Positions 52,861-60,047 of a stretch of 61,669 bases of DNA are shown piece by piece. The notes under the pieces are model-generated. The model did no database searches, was not told where the DNA came from, and saw nothing but the letters and a program-made list of their open reading frames with translations. Positions within the stretch are counted from its first letter, which is position 1. Each line of letters starts with the position of its first letter. Made by a program: the position numbers and the translations under genes. The DNA comes from Bacteroidota bacterium (GTDB taxonomy: Bacteria; Bacteroidota; Bacteroidia; SXHM01), in the NCBI GenBank assembly GCA_947479755.1, contig CANKAM010000019.1:1-61669 (forward strand), written 5' to 3'.

Positions 52861-53526
52861 CTATTCAAAAATCAGGGAATCCGTTTTTGCGCCCAAATCT
52901 TTAAGATTGGTTACAATGCTGGTGACAAAATCAGCAGGACCGCACACATAAAAGTTCTGATTAAAATCTGCGATGGTATCAATAAGAAAATTGCGGTCTA
53001 TTCTGCGTTCAATAAAGCCGATGTTGTTTTCGCGGGTAAGTATATTGAGGTAATTATCATGCAGCATTTTTGTAAATTCATCAAACAGAAAAATGTCGGC
53101 TGATGTTTTGTTGGAGAAGATTAGTTTGTTGCCTTTTATCGCTTTTTTATTATACAGATCCCGGAAAATAGCGATGAAAGGTGTTACACCTGCACCACCG
53201 GCAAAAAAGATGCCCGGTCCTTTATACTGTATGGCTCCGAATACATTGTGCAGTATTAATTCGGCTCCGGCATTGGTAGCGCCCAGGGCATTGGTTACGC
53301 CTTTGTTTTTAGGATAAATTTTTATCATAAACTCCAGGTAATCCATTTCAGGACGGCTGGTAAACGTAAAGGGGCGCAATTGATTTTTCCATTCTTCAGT
53401 ATTGATAGAAATATCGGTGCCCTGCCCGGGAAGAAAGCTATAGCCGGTTGGTTTTTCAACCACAAAGCGCTTTACATCGTGGTTAATAAAATTTGTTTCT
53501 AAAACTTTTACCACTACTGCACTCAT
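52861..53526 (-). CDS. Flavodoxin/ferredoxin-NAD(P) reductase-like oxidoreductase
   Basis: This 221-residue protein has the FAD-binding beta-barrel start (KRFVVEKPTGYSFLPGQGTD), the flavin motif LRPFTFTS in place of RxYS, and the pyridine-nucleotide domain (GIFFAGGAGVTPFIAIFRDL, then FYVCGPADFV). No iron-sulphur or heme domain is attached, so it must hand electrons to a separate carrier. It lies 102 bp downstream of the flavin monooxygenase gene on the same strand, but single-component monooxygenases of that class do not need a reductase, so the link is weak. Confidence 0.88.
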   Translation of the reverse strand: MSAVVVKVLETNFINHDVKRFVVEKPTGYSFLPGQGTDISINTEEWKNQLRPFTFTSRPEMDYLEFMIKIYPKNKGVTNALGATNAGAELILHNVFGAIQYKGPGIFFAGGAGVTPFIAIFRDLYNKKAIKGNKLIFSNKTSADIFLFDEFTKMLHDNYLNILTRENNIGFIERRIDRNFLIDTIADFNQNFYVCGPADFVTSIVTNLKDLGAKTDSLIFE

Positions 53527-56192: not shown

Positions 56193-57635
56193 CTAGTGCA
56201 CCACCAGTTTTCGGTGCGCCCTCAACCCGTTGGTATTGCTCAACTCTAATGAATAAATTCCGGCAGGGATATTTTCAAGACTTACTGATTCAATATCGTT
56301 CATCAATGTATTATGGTAAATCTTCTGTCCGTTTATGTTGAATATCGAGATTTGAAACACCCCTGCTTCTTTCAGAATTATAAACTCACCGGTGGAAGGA
56401 TTGGGATATACCGTAAAACTGATTGTCGGGGTTTCATGAATACCGGCAGAGCAGGATGAAAATTTGCCGAGCATATAAAATGCAGAGGAAGTCAGTGCGG
56501 GCTGCACACAACCGGCATGGTTCGTTTCTCCAAAGTTCTCAATCTGAATATCAGGGGCGTTATTGGCCCGCCATGCCGAGTCTGCGTGTATGGCATTCAG
56601 ATAAGGCACTTGTTCATCCAGCGTGCAATAAGCAATTTTAACGGGCTTCTGCGGTGACCAACCCAGTAGGTCGTTTTCGGCCAATATCTGTCGCAGCGGA
56701 TGATTGAGGTCGCTCTCAAATTCGGCAATCACATTGTCTTTAATCATTTGACGAGGCACCTGGGTGCAAAACTGCGCCACATCATCCAGCGTATAGTCTC
56801 TGCTATACAGCATCGGGGGTATAATGCTGTCATAAGGGTACTTGAATACATCAGAAGGAGTAGGATACAATTGACTCAAGGAAGGATATACCGAATGGTA
56901 GCCCAAAAGCAGAAAGGGCAAATAACCGGGCGTGGCATAGGGCTCATTGGAGAGCATTAAATCCACCATGGTTACATTCAGGTCGTAGGGGCCGCTCATG
57001 GGTGCCAGTGCCACCACATTGAACTCGCTGGAATATTCTTCCTGAATCAGTTTTGCAGTAGCCATAGTGGTGTAGCCACCCTGTGAGTAGCCGGTAAGGG
57101 CCACTTCGCCACTGAGCGGAATGTTAAGTGTATCGGCTAACTGGCGTGCAGCCCGCATAATGTTGATGGATGCATAACCGGAGTGAAACTTATTGATGTA
57201 CGTATGAATAACAACGCTGGTGTCGCAGTCCCCCAACCCCAGTTCATCGGGCATGGCAGTAACCACACCACCAACACCGGCAAAGAAAAACCCGATGGGG
57301 CGCTCAGGCCCGTTGTAGCTGGGCACCTGGTCCCATCTGCTGAAACTGCCGTGGGCATAGCACCCCAGGCCACTCGGGCACGTAGTGTTTTTGGGAAACA
57401 CCACAATACCCGAAACATTTACTAATGAATCTATATCCTTGTAGGGTGTTTTGTAAATAACCTGGTAAACATCAATATCGTATTGTGGCGGTATCGGAAG
57501 GGTGAAACCGGAAGATGAAAAATAGTTTTCGAGCTCTGCAACAGTATAACTAACCTGCAGCGAATACGAAACCAACTGTGCGTTGCTGTTTCCGAAAAAA
57601 AATAATGTAATTGCTAATAGTAAATACCGTTTCAT
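56193..57635 (-). CDS. Secreted alpha/beta hydrolase (lipase/esterase-like) with a type A type IX sorting domain
   Basis: This 480-residue protein has a signal peptide ending SNAQ at residue 20. The catalytic domain (about 30-400) carries the nucleophile elbow GYSQGG (Ser184), a candidate acid in LDEQVPYLNA, and His in GETNHAGC. It is similar in plan to secretory lipases that use a lid and a cap. The last 75 residues are a type A C-terminal domain (YPNPSTGEFII, FNINGQKIY, LENIPAGIYSLEL, KLVV), which directs export by the type IX system and surface attachment or release. The substrate, an ester or lipid, is inferred. Confidence 0.92.
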   Translation of the reverse strand: MKRYLLLAITLFFFGNSNAQLVSYSLQVSYTVAELENYFSSSGFTLPIPPQYDIDVYQVIYKTPYKDIDSLVNVSGIVVFPKNTTCPSGLGCYAHGSFSRWDQVPSYNGPERPIGFFFAGVGGVVTAMPDELGLGDCDTSVVIHTYINKFHSGYASINIMRAARQLADTLNIPLSGEVALTGYSQGGYTTMATAKLIQEEYSSEFNVVALAPMSGPYDLNVTMVDLMLSNEPYATPGYLPFLLLGYHSVYPSLSQLYPTPSDVFKYPYDSIIPPMLYSRDYTLDDVAQFCTQVPRQMIKDNVIAEFESDLNHPLRQILAENDLLGWSPQKPVKIAYCTLDEQVPYLNAIHADSAWRANNAPDIQIENFGETNHAGCVQPALTSSAFYMLGKFSSCSAGIHETPTISFTVYPNPSTGEFIILKEAGVFQISIFNINGQKIYHNTLMNDIESVSLENIPAGIYSLELSNTNGLRAHRKLVVH

Positions 57636-57892: not shown

Positions 57893-58780
57893 CTAATCAT
57901 CATCCTTATCTTTCTTGTCTTTCGATTTAATAAAATCTTTAATCTTATTTCGGTCGCTCTCATTCAGGCTTTTGTTATTATTCTTTATGTCGTGTTCGTT
58001 TCCGCTTTTATGGCACGATGCACAGTTACTGATGTTGTAAATTCCTTCTTCGTTATGCTCTGCTAAAATACTTCTTTCAGAGTGTTCATGGCAACCATAA
58101 CAAGTAAAGGAGTTGTAATTATTATTTGCATGGCACGTATTACAGGTTGCATTATGATTTCTATCCAGTTCAAAATACGAAGAATGGTCAAAAGTAGAAG
58201 GCACCCATTTATTTGTGCTGTGGCATTTGTCGCAATTTTCATTAATTAAATCATGGAAATTGTCTTTGGGCTTTTGATGGCACGAAGCACAGTTGCTTTT
58301 GTTCAAAAGCATTTCATGATTAAATGAAACTGAATTTTTCCAGTTTTGGGTTTGATGACAACTGTTGCAATTGGCAGAAACTTGAGTATGCAGATTGTCG
58401 GCAGGTGTAGCATGGCAACTGTTGCAATTATTAATGACAGATGTTGAAAGTAACTCATGCTTAAAATCATTTAAAGGATGTTCAGGAAATAATCCCTGAT
58501 GCTCGGCATGGCAAGAGCTGCATTCCTGACTGGAAAGTTGTTGATGGAACAGCGTTTTAATCTGCCTGCCTGTGGTATCTTTTCCAATGTCAGATAGTTT
58601 GTGGCACGAGATACATTTTTCGTTTGAAATACCGTCAAAAGGTTTGTGACAAGCAAGGCATTCGCTATTTAATTTCTGATGTCCCTCTGCTAATTCTCCC
58701 GGATTAATCATGGCATGCGGGTATAGTATTATGAGCATAATTACCAGTACCATTGATAGCAAAACATATAGCTTTTTCAT
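57893..58780 (-). CDS. Membrane-anchored decaheme c-type cytochrome
   Basis: This 295-residue protein has an N-terminal signal anchor (KLYVLLSMVLVIMLIILYP). Ten CxxCH heme motifs start at residues 41, 56, 87, 119, 138, 164, 183, 213, 227 and 253. Many other His residues (for example 80, 94, 108, 131, 155, 176, 199, 209) lie between them and can be the distal ligands, as in cytochrome c3/c7-type multihaem proteins. The C-terminus is a Lys/Asp tail. The hemes should sit on the periplasmic side. Its start shares one base with the stop of the cytochrome b-like gene, so the two are coupled and likely exchange electrons. Confidence 0.93.
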   Translation of the reverse strand: MKKLYVLLSMVLVIMLIILYPHAMINPGELAEGHQKLNSECLACHKPFDGISNEKCISCHKLSDIGKDTTGRQIKTLFHQQLSSQECSSCHAEHQGLFPEHPLNDFKHELLSTSVINNCNSCHATPADNLHTQVSANCNSCHQTQNWKNSVSFNHEMLLNKSNCASCHQKPKDNFHDLINENCDKCHSTNKWVPSTFDHSSYFELDRNHNATCNTCHANNNYNSFTCYGCHEHSERSILAEHNEEGIYNISNCASCHKSGNEHDIKNNNKSLNESDRNKIKDFIKSKDKKDKDDD

Positions 58781-59349
58781 TAGCTAAATATTAAAATAGT
58801 GATGATATGCATAAGCGACAAAATGCCAAGTGTAAAAGCAATGGGCAAGTGTATTACTCTCCATTTTTTCATAGCATCAACTGTTATGGTATCAAAAAAC
58901 AGTTTCTTGTCTGCCTCTTCAATGCTCATTCCCGATGATATTAATTCTTGTCTGTTTGCACTCAATGTTATACTTGCATTTTTAAGTAAAAATTTACCGA
59001 CCAGACCACTTGCTACATTAATTAACAACATCAGAATAGCAAGCCAGGGTAATATGGCATTGAAATGCACACCTGCATGTACCAGAAGTAAAACTGAACC
59101 TATCCATGCCATATATTCATGCATCATCAGAAAATCTTTTGGTGAACCGGATTGAATTATTTTTCGTTTTCTTAACGAGTAAACAAACGAAATAAGAATA
59201 ATACAGGTGCCAATTAAACCCAGATACCTGCCAATATAAACCAGGTGAAAATAATGAAGCAGGTAATCAATGACGATGGTTACAAAAATCATCATGGAAT
59301 ATAAAAAGAAAAATGGTAATACCTGCTTAATAAATATTGGAAGTTTCAT
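58780..59349 (-). CDS. Putative diheme cytochrome b-like membrane protein
   Basis: This 189-residue protein has about five membrane helices. Two of them carry His pairs spaced exactly 14 residues apart: His77/His91 (HEYMAWIGSVLLLVH) and His167/His181 (HLPIAFTLGILSLMH). That spacing, twice, is the diheme pattern of cytochrome b-type four-helix bundles, with one heme near each membrane face. The loop between them (about 125-160) is polar. It lies between the rubrerythrin gene (33 bp upstream) and the decaheme cytochrome gene (one-base overlap). I infer quinol oxidation with transfer to the decaheme protein; no named family is recognised with certainty. Confidence 0.8.
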   Translation of the reverse strand: MKLPIFIKQVLPFFFLYSMMIFVTIVIDYLLHYFHLVYIGRYLGLIGTCIILISFVYSLRKRKIIQSGSPKDFLMMHEYMAWIGSVLLLVHAGVHFNAILPWLAILMLLINVASGLVGKFLLKNASITLSANRQELISSGMSIEEADKKLFFDTITVDAMKKWRVIHLPIAFTLGILSLMHIITILIFS

Positions 59350-59381
59350 AAAAATGAATGTGTGTTTAACTCACATTAGAA

Positions 59382-60047
59382 TTATTGAAATACTATAAAT
59401 TTTTCTCTGTCTGTTAATGAAAAGTCGCAATGCCTGGGTGCGGTAGTGGCATATGTATCACCACAAGCAGGACACACAAAATATGTGGATGGCAAACTAT
59501 TTAACGTATTGCTGTTAATGTCACCTAAGGCCTGCTCAAAAAAGAATTTATGTTTTTGTTCTGTTTTCATTGCATAAGTAAGGCTTAAAAAAGCAATTTG
59601 ATTGTCGGCCGCTTCGGCTGTTTTTAAAAAGTCAGGATACATTGTTTTTGCTTCATTGGCTTCTCCATCTATATCGTCATGCAAATTCTCTTTTGTGGTT
59701 TTTACTTTGTATTCAGGAGTTATTACCGGAACGGTTGCTCCTGCATCTTCTATCACGGCTTTATGATTTGTTGCGTGAATGTTTTCAGCAGCTGATACTG
59801 CATTATATAATAATGCAATGTTATGAAAGCCTTCTTCCTCAGCTTTCTTTGAAAAGGCTTCATATTTAGCTGTAGCTGTTTTCTCCCCTTTATATGCTGA
59901 TTGCATATTTTCTATTGTTTTAGTTCCTGCTTCTATATGTTGCTTGGTTGTTGTTTTAATTTCAGTTTTTTTATTGTCGCATGAGGCCATTACCAAACAA
60001 CTAATAATGGCTAAGCACAGATAATAGAACAGGGATAGATTTTTCAT
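59382..60047 (-). CDS. Rubrerythrin-family lipoprotein
   Basis: This 221-residue protein has a lipoprotein signal with lipobox MASC (Cys23). The diiron four-helix bundle is intact: Glu55, Glu88-x-x-His91, Glu129 and Glu132, Glu163-x-x-His166. The C-terminal rubredoxin-like domain has only three cysteines (Cys192, Cys195, Cys207); the fourth position is Ser210 in CDFS. Rubrerythrins reduce peroxide, usually in the cytosol; this copy should sit in the envelope facing the periplasm. It begins the three-gene run with the cytochrome b-like and decaheme genes, which could supply its electrons. An operator-like repeat lies upstream at 60131-60169. Confidence 0.9.
   Translation of the reverse strand: MKNLSLFYYLCLAIISCLVMASCDNKKTEIKTTTKQHIEAGTKTIENMQSAYKGEKTATAKYEAFSKKAEEEGFHNIALLYNAVSAAENIHATNHKAVIEDAGATVPVITPEYKVKTTKENLHDDIDGEANEAKTMYPDFLKTAEAADNQIAFLSLTYAMKTEQKHKFFFEQALGDINSNTLNSLPSTYFVCPACGDTYATTAPRHCDFSLTDREKFIVFQ

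Follow-up and report, generated by a model that had tools for sequence, protein, structure and literature searches.

An exported rubrerythrin encoded beside a conserved cytochrome b-c module in Bacteroidota: a candidate electron feed for peroxide defence

Results

An operon for a rubrerythrin and two candidate hemoproteins

The window, by which we mean the whole stretch of Bacteroidota DNA that was analysed (61,669 nucleotides), carries three minus-strand genes in a single operon, encoding a rubrerythrin (Rbr), a small membrane protein (the b protein), and a decaheme c-type cytochrome (the c protein; table 1). All three open reading frames lie where an earlier note on this DNA had placed them. 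The one-base overlap that it reported between the b and c genes (TAATG) is present, and the gap from the Rbr gene to the b gene is 32 bases rather than the 33 given there. On the same strand, ~4.4 kb downstream of the operon and not adjacent to it, is a small gene for an FAD/NAD-binding protein resembling ferredoxin reductases, and another gene of the window specifies an enzyme that resembles secretory lipases and carries a sorting tail for type IX secretion.

Table 1. Positions in the window of the operon genes and of two other genes mentioned in the text
Feature	Position	Strand	Basis
Lipoprotein rubrerythrin (Rbr), 221 aa	59382..60047	(-)	PF02915 and PDB rubrerythrin matches
b protein, 189 aa, five-helix, probable di-heme cytochrome b	58780..59349	(-)	Invariant His, AlphaFold2 model
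Decaheme c-type cytochrome, 295 aa	57893..58780	(-)	Ten CxxCH
Secretory-lipase-like enzyme	56193..57635		Type IX secretion sorting tail
Ferredoxin-reductase-like gene	52861..53526	(-)	FAD/NAD-binding

The operon Rbr is the sole PF02915 match in a profile search of the 99.6%-complete assembly. The same kind of search gave no VIT1 match in the assembly, and DUF2231 is represented in the genome by a weak match only, within a longer frame. Besides Rbr there are six CCP_MauG matches, so that the genome has other candidate periplasmic peroxidases.

An exported rubrerythrin with an altered rubredoxin domain

By the usual account, rubrerythrins work in the cytosol as peroxidases fed by NAD(P)H-rubredoxin systems, as in Pyrococcus and Desulfovibrio. 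The window protein matches PF02915 at 2.2e-17 (64 bits, cut-off 22.8) and, among PDB chains, rubrerythrins of the Pyrococcus type at 9e-23, with 1nnq and 3mps as the best matches. Its diiron domain spans residues ~40-177, in which the ligands E55, E88, H91, E129, E132, E163, and H166 are conserved together with Y62 and Y137. No lipoprotein Rbr in which this region is present has lost a diiron ligand or either of the two conserved tyrosines. The presumed activity is that of a peroxidase, with peroxide as the substrate. The lipid anchor proposed in the earlier note is borne out by an N-terminal hydrophobic stretch that ends in MASC, with Cys23 as the lipobox cysteine; the lipobox was called by eye and from the alignment, and the cysteine is kept in 27 of 28 proteins of the type. 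Given these conserved signal sequences, we reject a cytosolic rubrerythrin. In one b-positive genome a stop splits the rubrerythrin gene (L096, L211).

The rubredoxin-like C-terminal domain is degenerate, a feature absent from the earlier note that bears directly on the electron path. It contains C192, C195, and C207, with Ser210 at the fourth position, and thus three of the four cysteines of a rubredoxin-type [Fe(SCys)4] site. Among 28 lipoprotein Rbrs with a readable tail, the fourth position is Ser in 25, Thr in one, and Cys in two, and all four cysteines were found in 12/12 of the cytosolic rubrerythrins compared. The second rubredoxin cysteine has also gone from the Rbr of L078, which is itself encoded in an Rbr-b-c operon. 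The two proteins that keep the fourth cysteine (L215 and L216) come from b-positive genomes in which Rbr is not beside b, two cases being too few to decide anything. As judged from these residues, the window protein has the diiron part of a rubrerythrin but a modified rubredoxin domain, which makes it a non-canonical rubrerythrin. Either a three-Cys-plus-Ser iron site at a shifted potential or the loss of the iron is possible, and either would alter the entry of electrons. The lost fourth cysteine fits a supply of electrons by another route, such as a cytochrome, and we count it as a separate line of support for a change of donor, one that falls short of proof. The Cys-to-Ser change is present also in G127 and G077, two sampled genomes without b, so that it is not attributable to b-c alone.

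The b protein is a candidate di-heme cytochrome b

The earlier note had drawn attention to two pairs of histidines spaced 14 residues apart in the small membrane protein. These pairs, 77/91 and 167/181, are invariant both in sixteen close homologues from a class sample and in the 54 homologues of a wider alignment, and the His-X13-His arrangement of H77, H91, H167, and H181 is kept even in relatives of ~290 residues at 20-26% identity. By contrast, only the closer family keeps H32 and H95 throughout. An AlphaFold2 model built from the 54-sequence alignment (pLDDT 86.7, pTM 0.77) has helices at 5-33, 37-54, 70-94, 99-138, and 164-188; a first model from 16 sequences was of low confidence, and its fold matches were meaningless. 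The pairs lie on helices 3 and 5 with one histidine of each near each membrane face, as in di-heme cytochromes b, where two helices each carry histidines at a spacing of 13-14 and together form two bis-His sites. A positive-inside reading of the loops would place H77 and H167 on the cytoplasmic side and H91 and H181 on the outer side.

As a single sequence, the b protein has no match in Pfam, NCBIfam, or the PDB. Foldseek searches with the better model returned nothing significant, the weak matches including cytochrome b6 (TM 0.49, E 2), cytochrome b561, and NOX5. The family profile matches csNOX5 (5o0t) at E 0.024 in an alignment that spans the first His pair, and individual family members match Ni_hydr_CYTB, DUF4405, and Ferric_reduct weakly. 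Together with the invariant histidine pairs, this faint profile resemblance to families of di-heme cytochromes b makes it likely that the b protein binds heme.

The b-c pair is a widespread module

The membrane-anchored ten-heme cytochrome described in the earlier note is well founded, since the c protein has ten CxxCH motifs and a single N-terminal hydrophobic segment (the anchor, ~7-25), as well as a charged C-terminal tail. In 5000 shuffles of its own composition, the maximum was three CxxCH against the ten observed. The 14 further histidines are enough for ten bis-His hemes, and the profile matches are to Cytochrom_c3_2 (7.8e-13) and Cytochrome_C7 (2.6e-10).

A scan of one genome per species in 84,980 species gave 245 relatives, of which the best 80 loci were analysed. 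A multiheme c with 5 to 12 CxxCH is encoded in 79/80 of these best loci, and it directly follows b in all 15 other genomes of the class that have a close b homologue. In a phylum-wide sample 70/296 genomes match, mostly of one family with 2-3 Mb genomes that appears to be Chlorobi-like; the readable loci of this family (f84, L185-L194) have both b and c, the number of hemes reaching 18. The pair is also found in Ignavibacteria-like genomes. An order-level search covered seven genomes of one genus only and was of little use. This distribution marks b-c as a conserved module of old standing and general use, without a special tie to rubrerythrin.

Several loci carry additional genes of interest. 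L145 has a b-c b-c tandem duplicate, and in L187 and L192, of the Chlorobi-like family, the pair stands beside a DUF4405-type protein and an upstream two-component pair of response regulator (RR) and histidine kinase (HK). In the Lutibacter-group loci L121, L126, and L130 an additional cytochrome b561-type gene lies directly upstream of b (PF01292 in L121), and a hemerythrin-domain gene lies just upstream of b in L029 (7432-7806) and L117. A distant b relative of ~290 residues with the same His pattern is found in L041-L045, L047, L190, and L195-L200 together with a protein that combines FAD/NAD and 2x[4Fe-4S], large cytochromes with up to 61 CxxCH, and a beta-barrel-like protein. These clusters suggest an electron conduit of Bacteroidota, not described so far, that leads from the cytoplasm to the outside.

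Rubrerythrin is a recurrent optional partner of b-c

The earlier note treated the three genes as one set. Their association elsewhere stands, with Rbr encoded in 13/80 b-c loci and in the same order, Rbr-b-c, in L078, and what does not stand is a fixed set of three. We therefore reject a fixed three-gene complex, the core being b-c only. The 13 linked Rbrs belong to several branches and are mostly on the same strand as b-c and adjoining it. Chance neighbourhood is likewise rejected, because the arrangement recurs in separate lineages. The orders include DUF2231-Rbr-b-c (L098, L112), HK-Rbr-DUF2231-b-c (L132), DUF2231-RR-HK-Rbr-DUF2231-b-c (L082, L134), Rbr-DUF2231-b-c, b-c-DUF2231-RR-HK-Rbr, and, with one small open reading frame in between, RR-HK-Rbr-DUF2231-b-c in a named isolate, Flavobacterium frigoris DSM 15719 (L146). 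The closest relatives of the window locus (L076, L077, and L079) have DUF2231-b-c. DUF2231, HK/RR, VIT, and Rbr are the only neighbour families that recur in more than five b loci.

Lipoprotein Rbr is encoded in ~25/79 b-c genomes and in 2/379 sampled genomes of the class without b, for which Fisher's p of 6e-19 ignores phylogeny, mixes two samples, and is a guide only. Within the class sample alone the counts are 2/16 b-positive and 2/379 b-less genomes (p 0.009). On the b tree, many of whose forks are weakly supported, the Rbr trait changes state at least 11 times, and a test of Rbr-DUF2231 pairing was not significant. The two exceptions, G127 and G077, encode a lipoprotein Rbr with no b homologue found, so that Rbr must use another donor there; G127 has Rbr-DUF2231, its Rbr being 84% identical to that of the window. 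Where Rbr copies are unlinked to b, the usual neighbours are HK, DUF2231, or a VIT exporter. A plasmid collection held rubrerythrins of <60% identity only. In L153, a record titled Bifidobacterium breve, the order RR-HK-VIT-DUF2231-b-c is that of a typical Bacteroidota cluster, and the record is probably a mislabelled or contaminated bin.

A second recurrent partner, encoded near b in 16/80 loci, is ~370 residues long and contains a VIT1 domain (PF01988, ~1e-68); in L084 its N-terminus is a borderline rubrerythrin match. The ferritin-like plus VIT1 layout is that of MbfA. MbfA-like proteins near b-c were noted in L084, L093, L108, L113, L123, L128, L136, L138, L141, L143, L148, L151, and L152. 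MbfA is an iron exporter needed for resistance to iron and H2O2 in Bradyrhizobium (PMC4902296). The VIT1 protein adjoins a lipoprotein Rbr in L203, L210, and L229, and a linked Rbr and VIT share one b locus once (L136). Taken at the level of gene neighbourhoods, Rbr, DUF2231, the two-component pair, and the MbfA-like exporter are shuffled optional partners of b-c. The simplest history would be an ancestral set (DUF2231-RR-HK)-Rbr-DUF2231-b-c of which lineages retained different parts: Rbr-b-c in the window, DUF2231-b-c in L076, L077, and L079, and Rbr-DUF2231 in G127.

Discussion

The exported Rbr beside cytochromes b and c looks like a real, recurrent, and so far undescribed electron feed for peroxide defence, and the interpretation given in the earlier note is supported in part. 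The best single account of the operon, to which we give even weight for and against, is an envelope peroxide reductase with the chain quinol-b-c-rubrerythrin-peroxide. The b protein would span the inner membrane with a stack of two b hemes and draw electrons on the membrane side, menaquinol being the most likely source. The decaheme c, its constant and membrane-anchored partner, would receive them. The c protein may be a general periplasmic distributor for which the lipid-anchored Rbr is one acceptor in these genomes, its diiron site reducing hydrogen peroxide. We propose that the rubredoxin domain would have drifted, with Ser or Thr replacing the fourth cysteine, because hemes have taken the place of a cytosolic NAD(P)H-rubredoxin chain as the source of electrons. 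Against this account, most b-c loci lack rubrerythrin, so b-c has other jobs; G127 and G077 encode the lipoprotein Rbr, with its Cys-to-Ser change, but no b homologue that was found; the fold search gave no significant match for b; and many forks of the b tree are weakly supported, with no significance in the Rbr-DUF2231 pairing test.

Three other explanations deserve weight. The common theme of the b-c partners, which would be envelope diiron chemistry under iron or peroxide stress, keeps alive a reading in terms of iron handling, where the exported Rbr is a ferroxidase or iron-peroxide scavenger near exporter-released iron, b-c is a ferric reductase or electron sink, and the set manages periplasmic ferrous iron with peroxide removal secondary. 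The ferritin-like/VIT1 protein near b in 16/80 loci, its adjacency to the lipoprotein Rbr of L203, L210, and L229, and the ability of MbfA to export iron and to protect against both iron and H2O2 in Bradyrhizobium (PMC4902296) all favor it. However, the window's genome is without any VIT1 match, a linked Rbr and VIT occur in a common b locus only once (L136), and the rubrerythrin ligand set is retained complete, so that we consider this reading rather unlikely. It is also unlikely, in our estimate, that the genes share regulation only, b-c serving respiration or extracellular electron transfer in general and Rbr being a co-operonic stress protein with some other periplasmic donor. The many loci in which b-c lacks Rbr, including those of the Chlorobi-like genomes with 10-18 hemes, and the presence of Rbr without b-c in G127 and G077 are what such a relation would produce, but the contrast between ~25/79 and 2/379 genomes, together with repeated direct adjacency, exceeds the usual loose co-regulation, and no neighbour family besides DUF2231, HK/RR, VIT, and Rbr is found in more than five loci.

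Electrons might also flow in reverse, gathered from outside by the decaheme c and returned by b to the quinone pool, with Rbr only shielding exposed hemes from peroxide. Chlorobi-like genomes, in which the pair is frequent, would presumably profit from such a supply of electrons to their quinones. Yet neither in the window nor in most loci does an outer-membrane conduit gene adjoin b-c, and we regard reverse flow as highly improbable.

The proposed envelope peroxide reductase resembles several known systems in part. Like classical rubrerythrin (PF02915), the window protein has the full diiron ligands and a C-terminal rubredoxin-like domain; unlike it, the protein is an exported lipoprotein, is encoded with cytochromes b and c, and belongs to a type with Ser or Thr at the fourth cysteine in 26/28 members. 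The nearest system in build is CbcL of Geobacter sulfurreducens, which unites an inner-membrane di-heme b domain and a nine-heme c domain in a single chain (PMC9129911). The likeness lies in two membrane b hemes, predicted for the window protein, with a periplasmic multiheme c, and the anatomy of the operon would fit quinol oxidation of the CbcL type. However, the window has two separate small proteins, from two genes sharing one base rather than one polypeptide, five helices rather than six, ten hemes rather than nine, a b protein without a Pfam family, and a rubrerythrin partner. The b protein also shares His pairs on two helices and weak profile matches (for single family members, up to 1.3e-4 and 2.3e-6) with NOX/ferric reductase (PF01794, csNOX5 5o0t) and prokaryotic cytochrome b561 (PF01292), from which it differs in having no accepted match of its own and no FAD/NAD domain. 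The nearest system in logic is MacA of Geobacter, a periplasmic di-heme peroxidase with multiheme cytochromes as interaction partners (PMC10582990). Reduction of a periplasmic peroxidase by a multiheme cytochrome is what we propose for Rbr, although MacA is a heme peroxidase and Rbr a diiron protein. A relative of MbfA, finally, is near b-c in 16/80 loci but absent from the window's genome. In the open literature searched (subscription papers being outside its scope), we found no description of an exported rubrerythrin with cytochrome partners, and for DUF2231 nothing beyond a database paper.

More tentatively, and with somewhat less than even confidence, we suggest a respiratory extracytoplasmic diiron peroxidase in which electrons would pass from quinol through a di-heme b and a multiheme c to an Rbr whose rubredoxin iron site was abandoned because c delivers the electrons. 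The full version, under a two-component pair and including DUF2231 membrane proteins, would have spread through environmental Bacteroidota. The system is directly testable in a named isolate, since F. frigoris DSM 15719 carries RR-HK-Rbr-DUF2231-b-c. If true, this would be a new form of envelope peroxide reduction at the expense of the respiratory chain, via an exported Rbr branch tied to a cytochrome module, and it would provide a first function for an unnamed, widely conserved b-c pair and for a branch of DUF2231.
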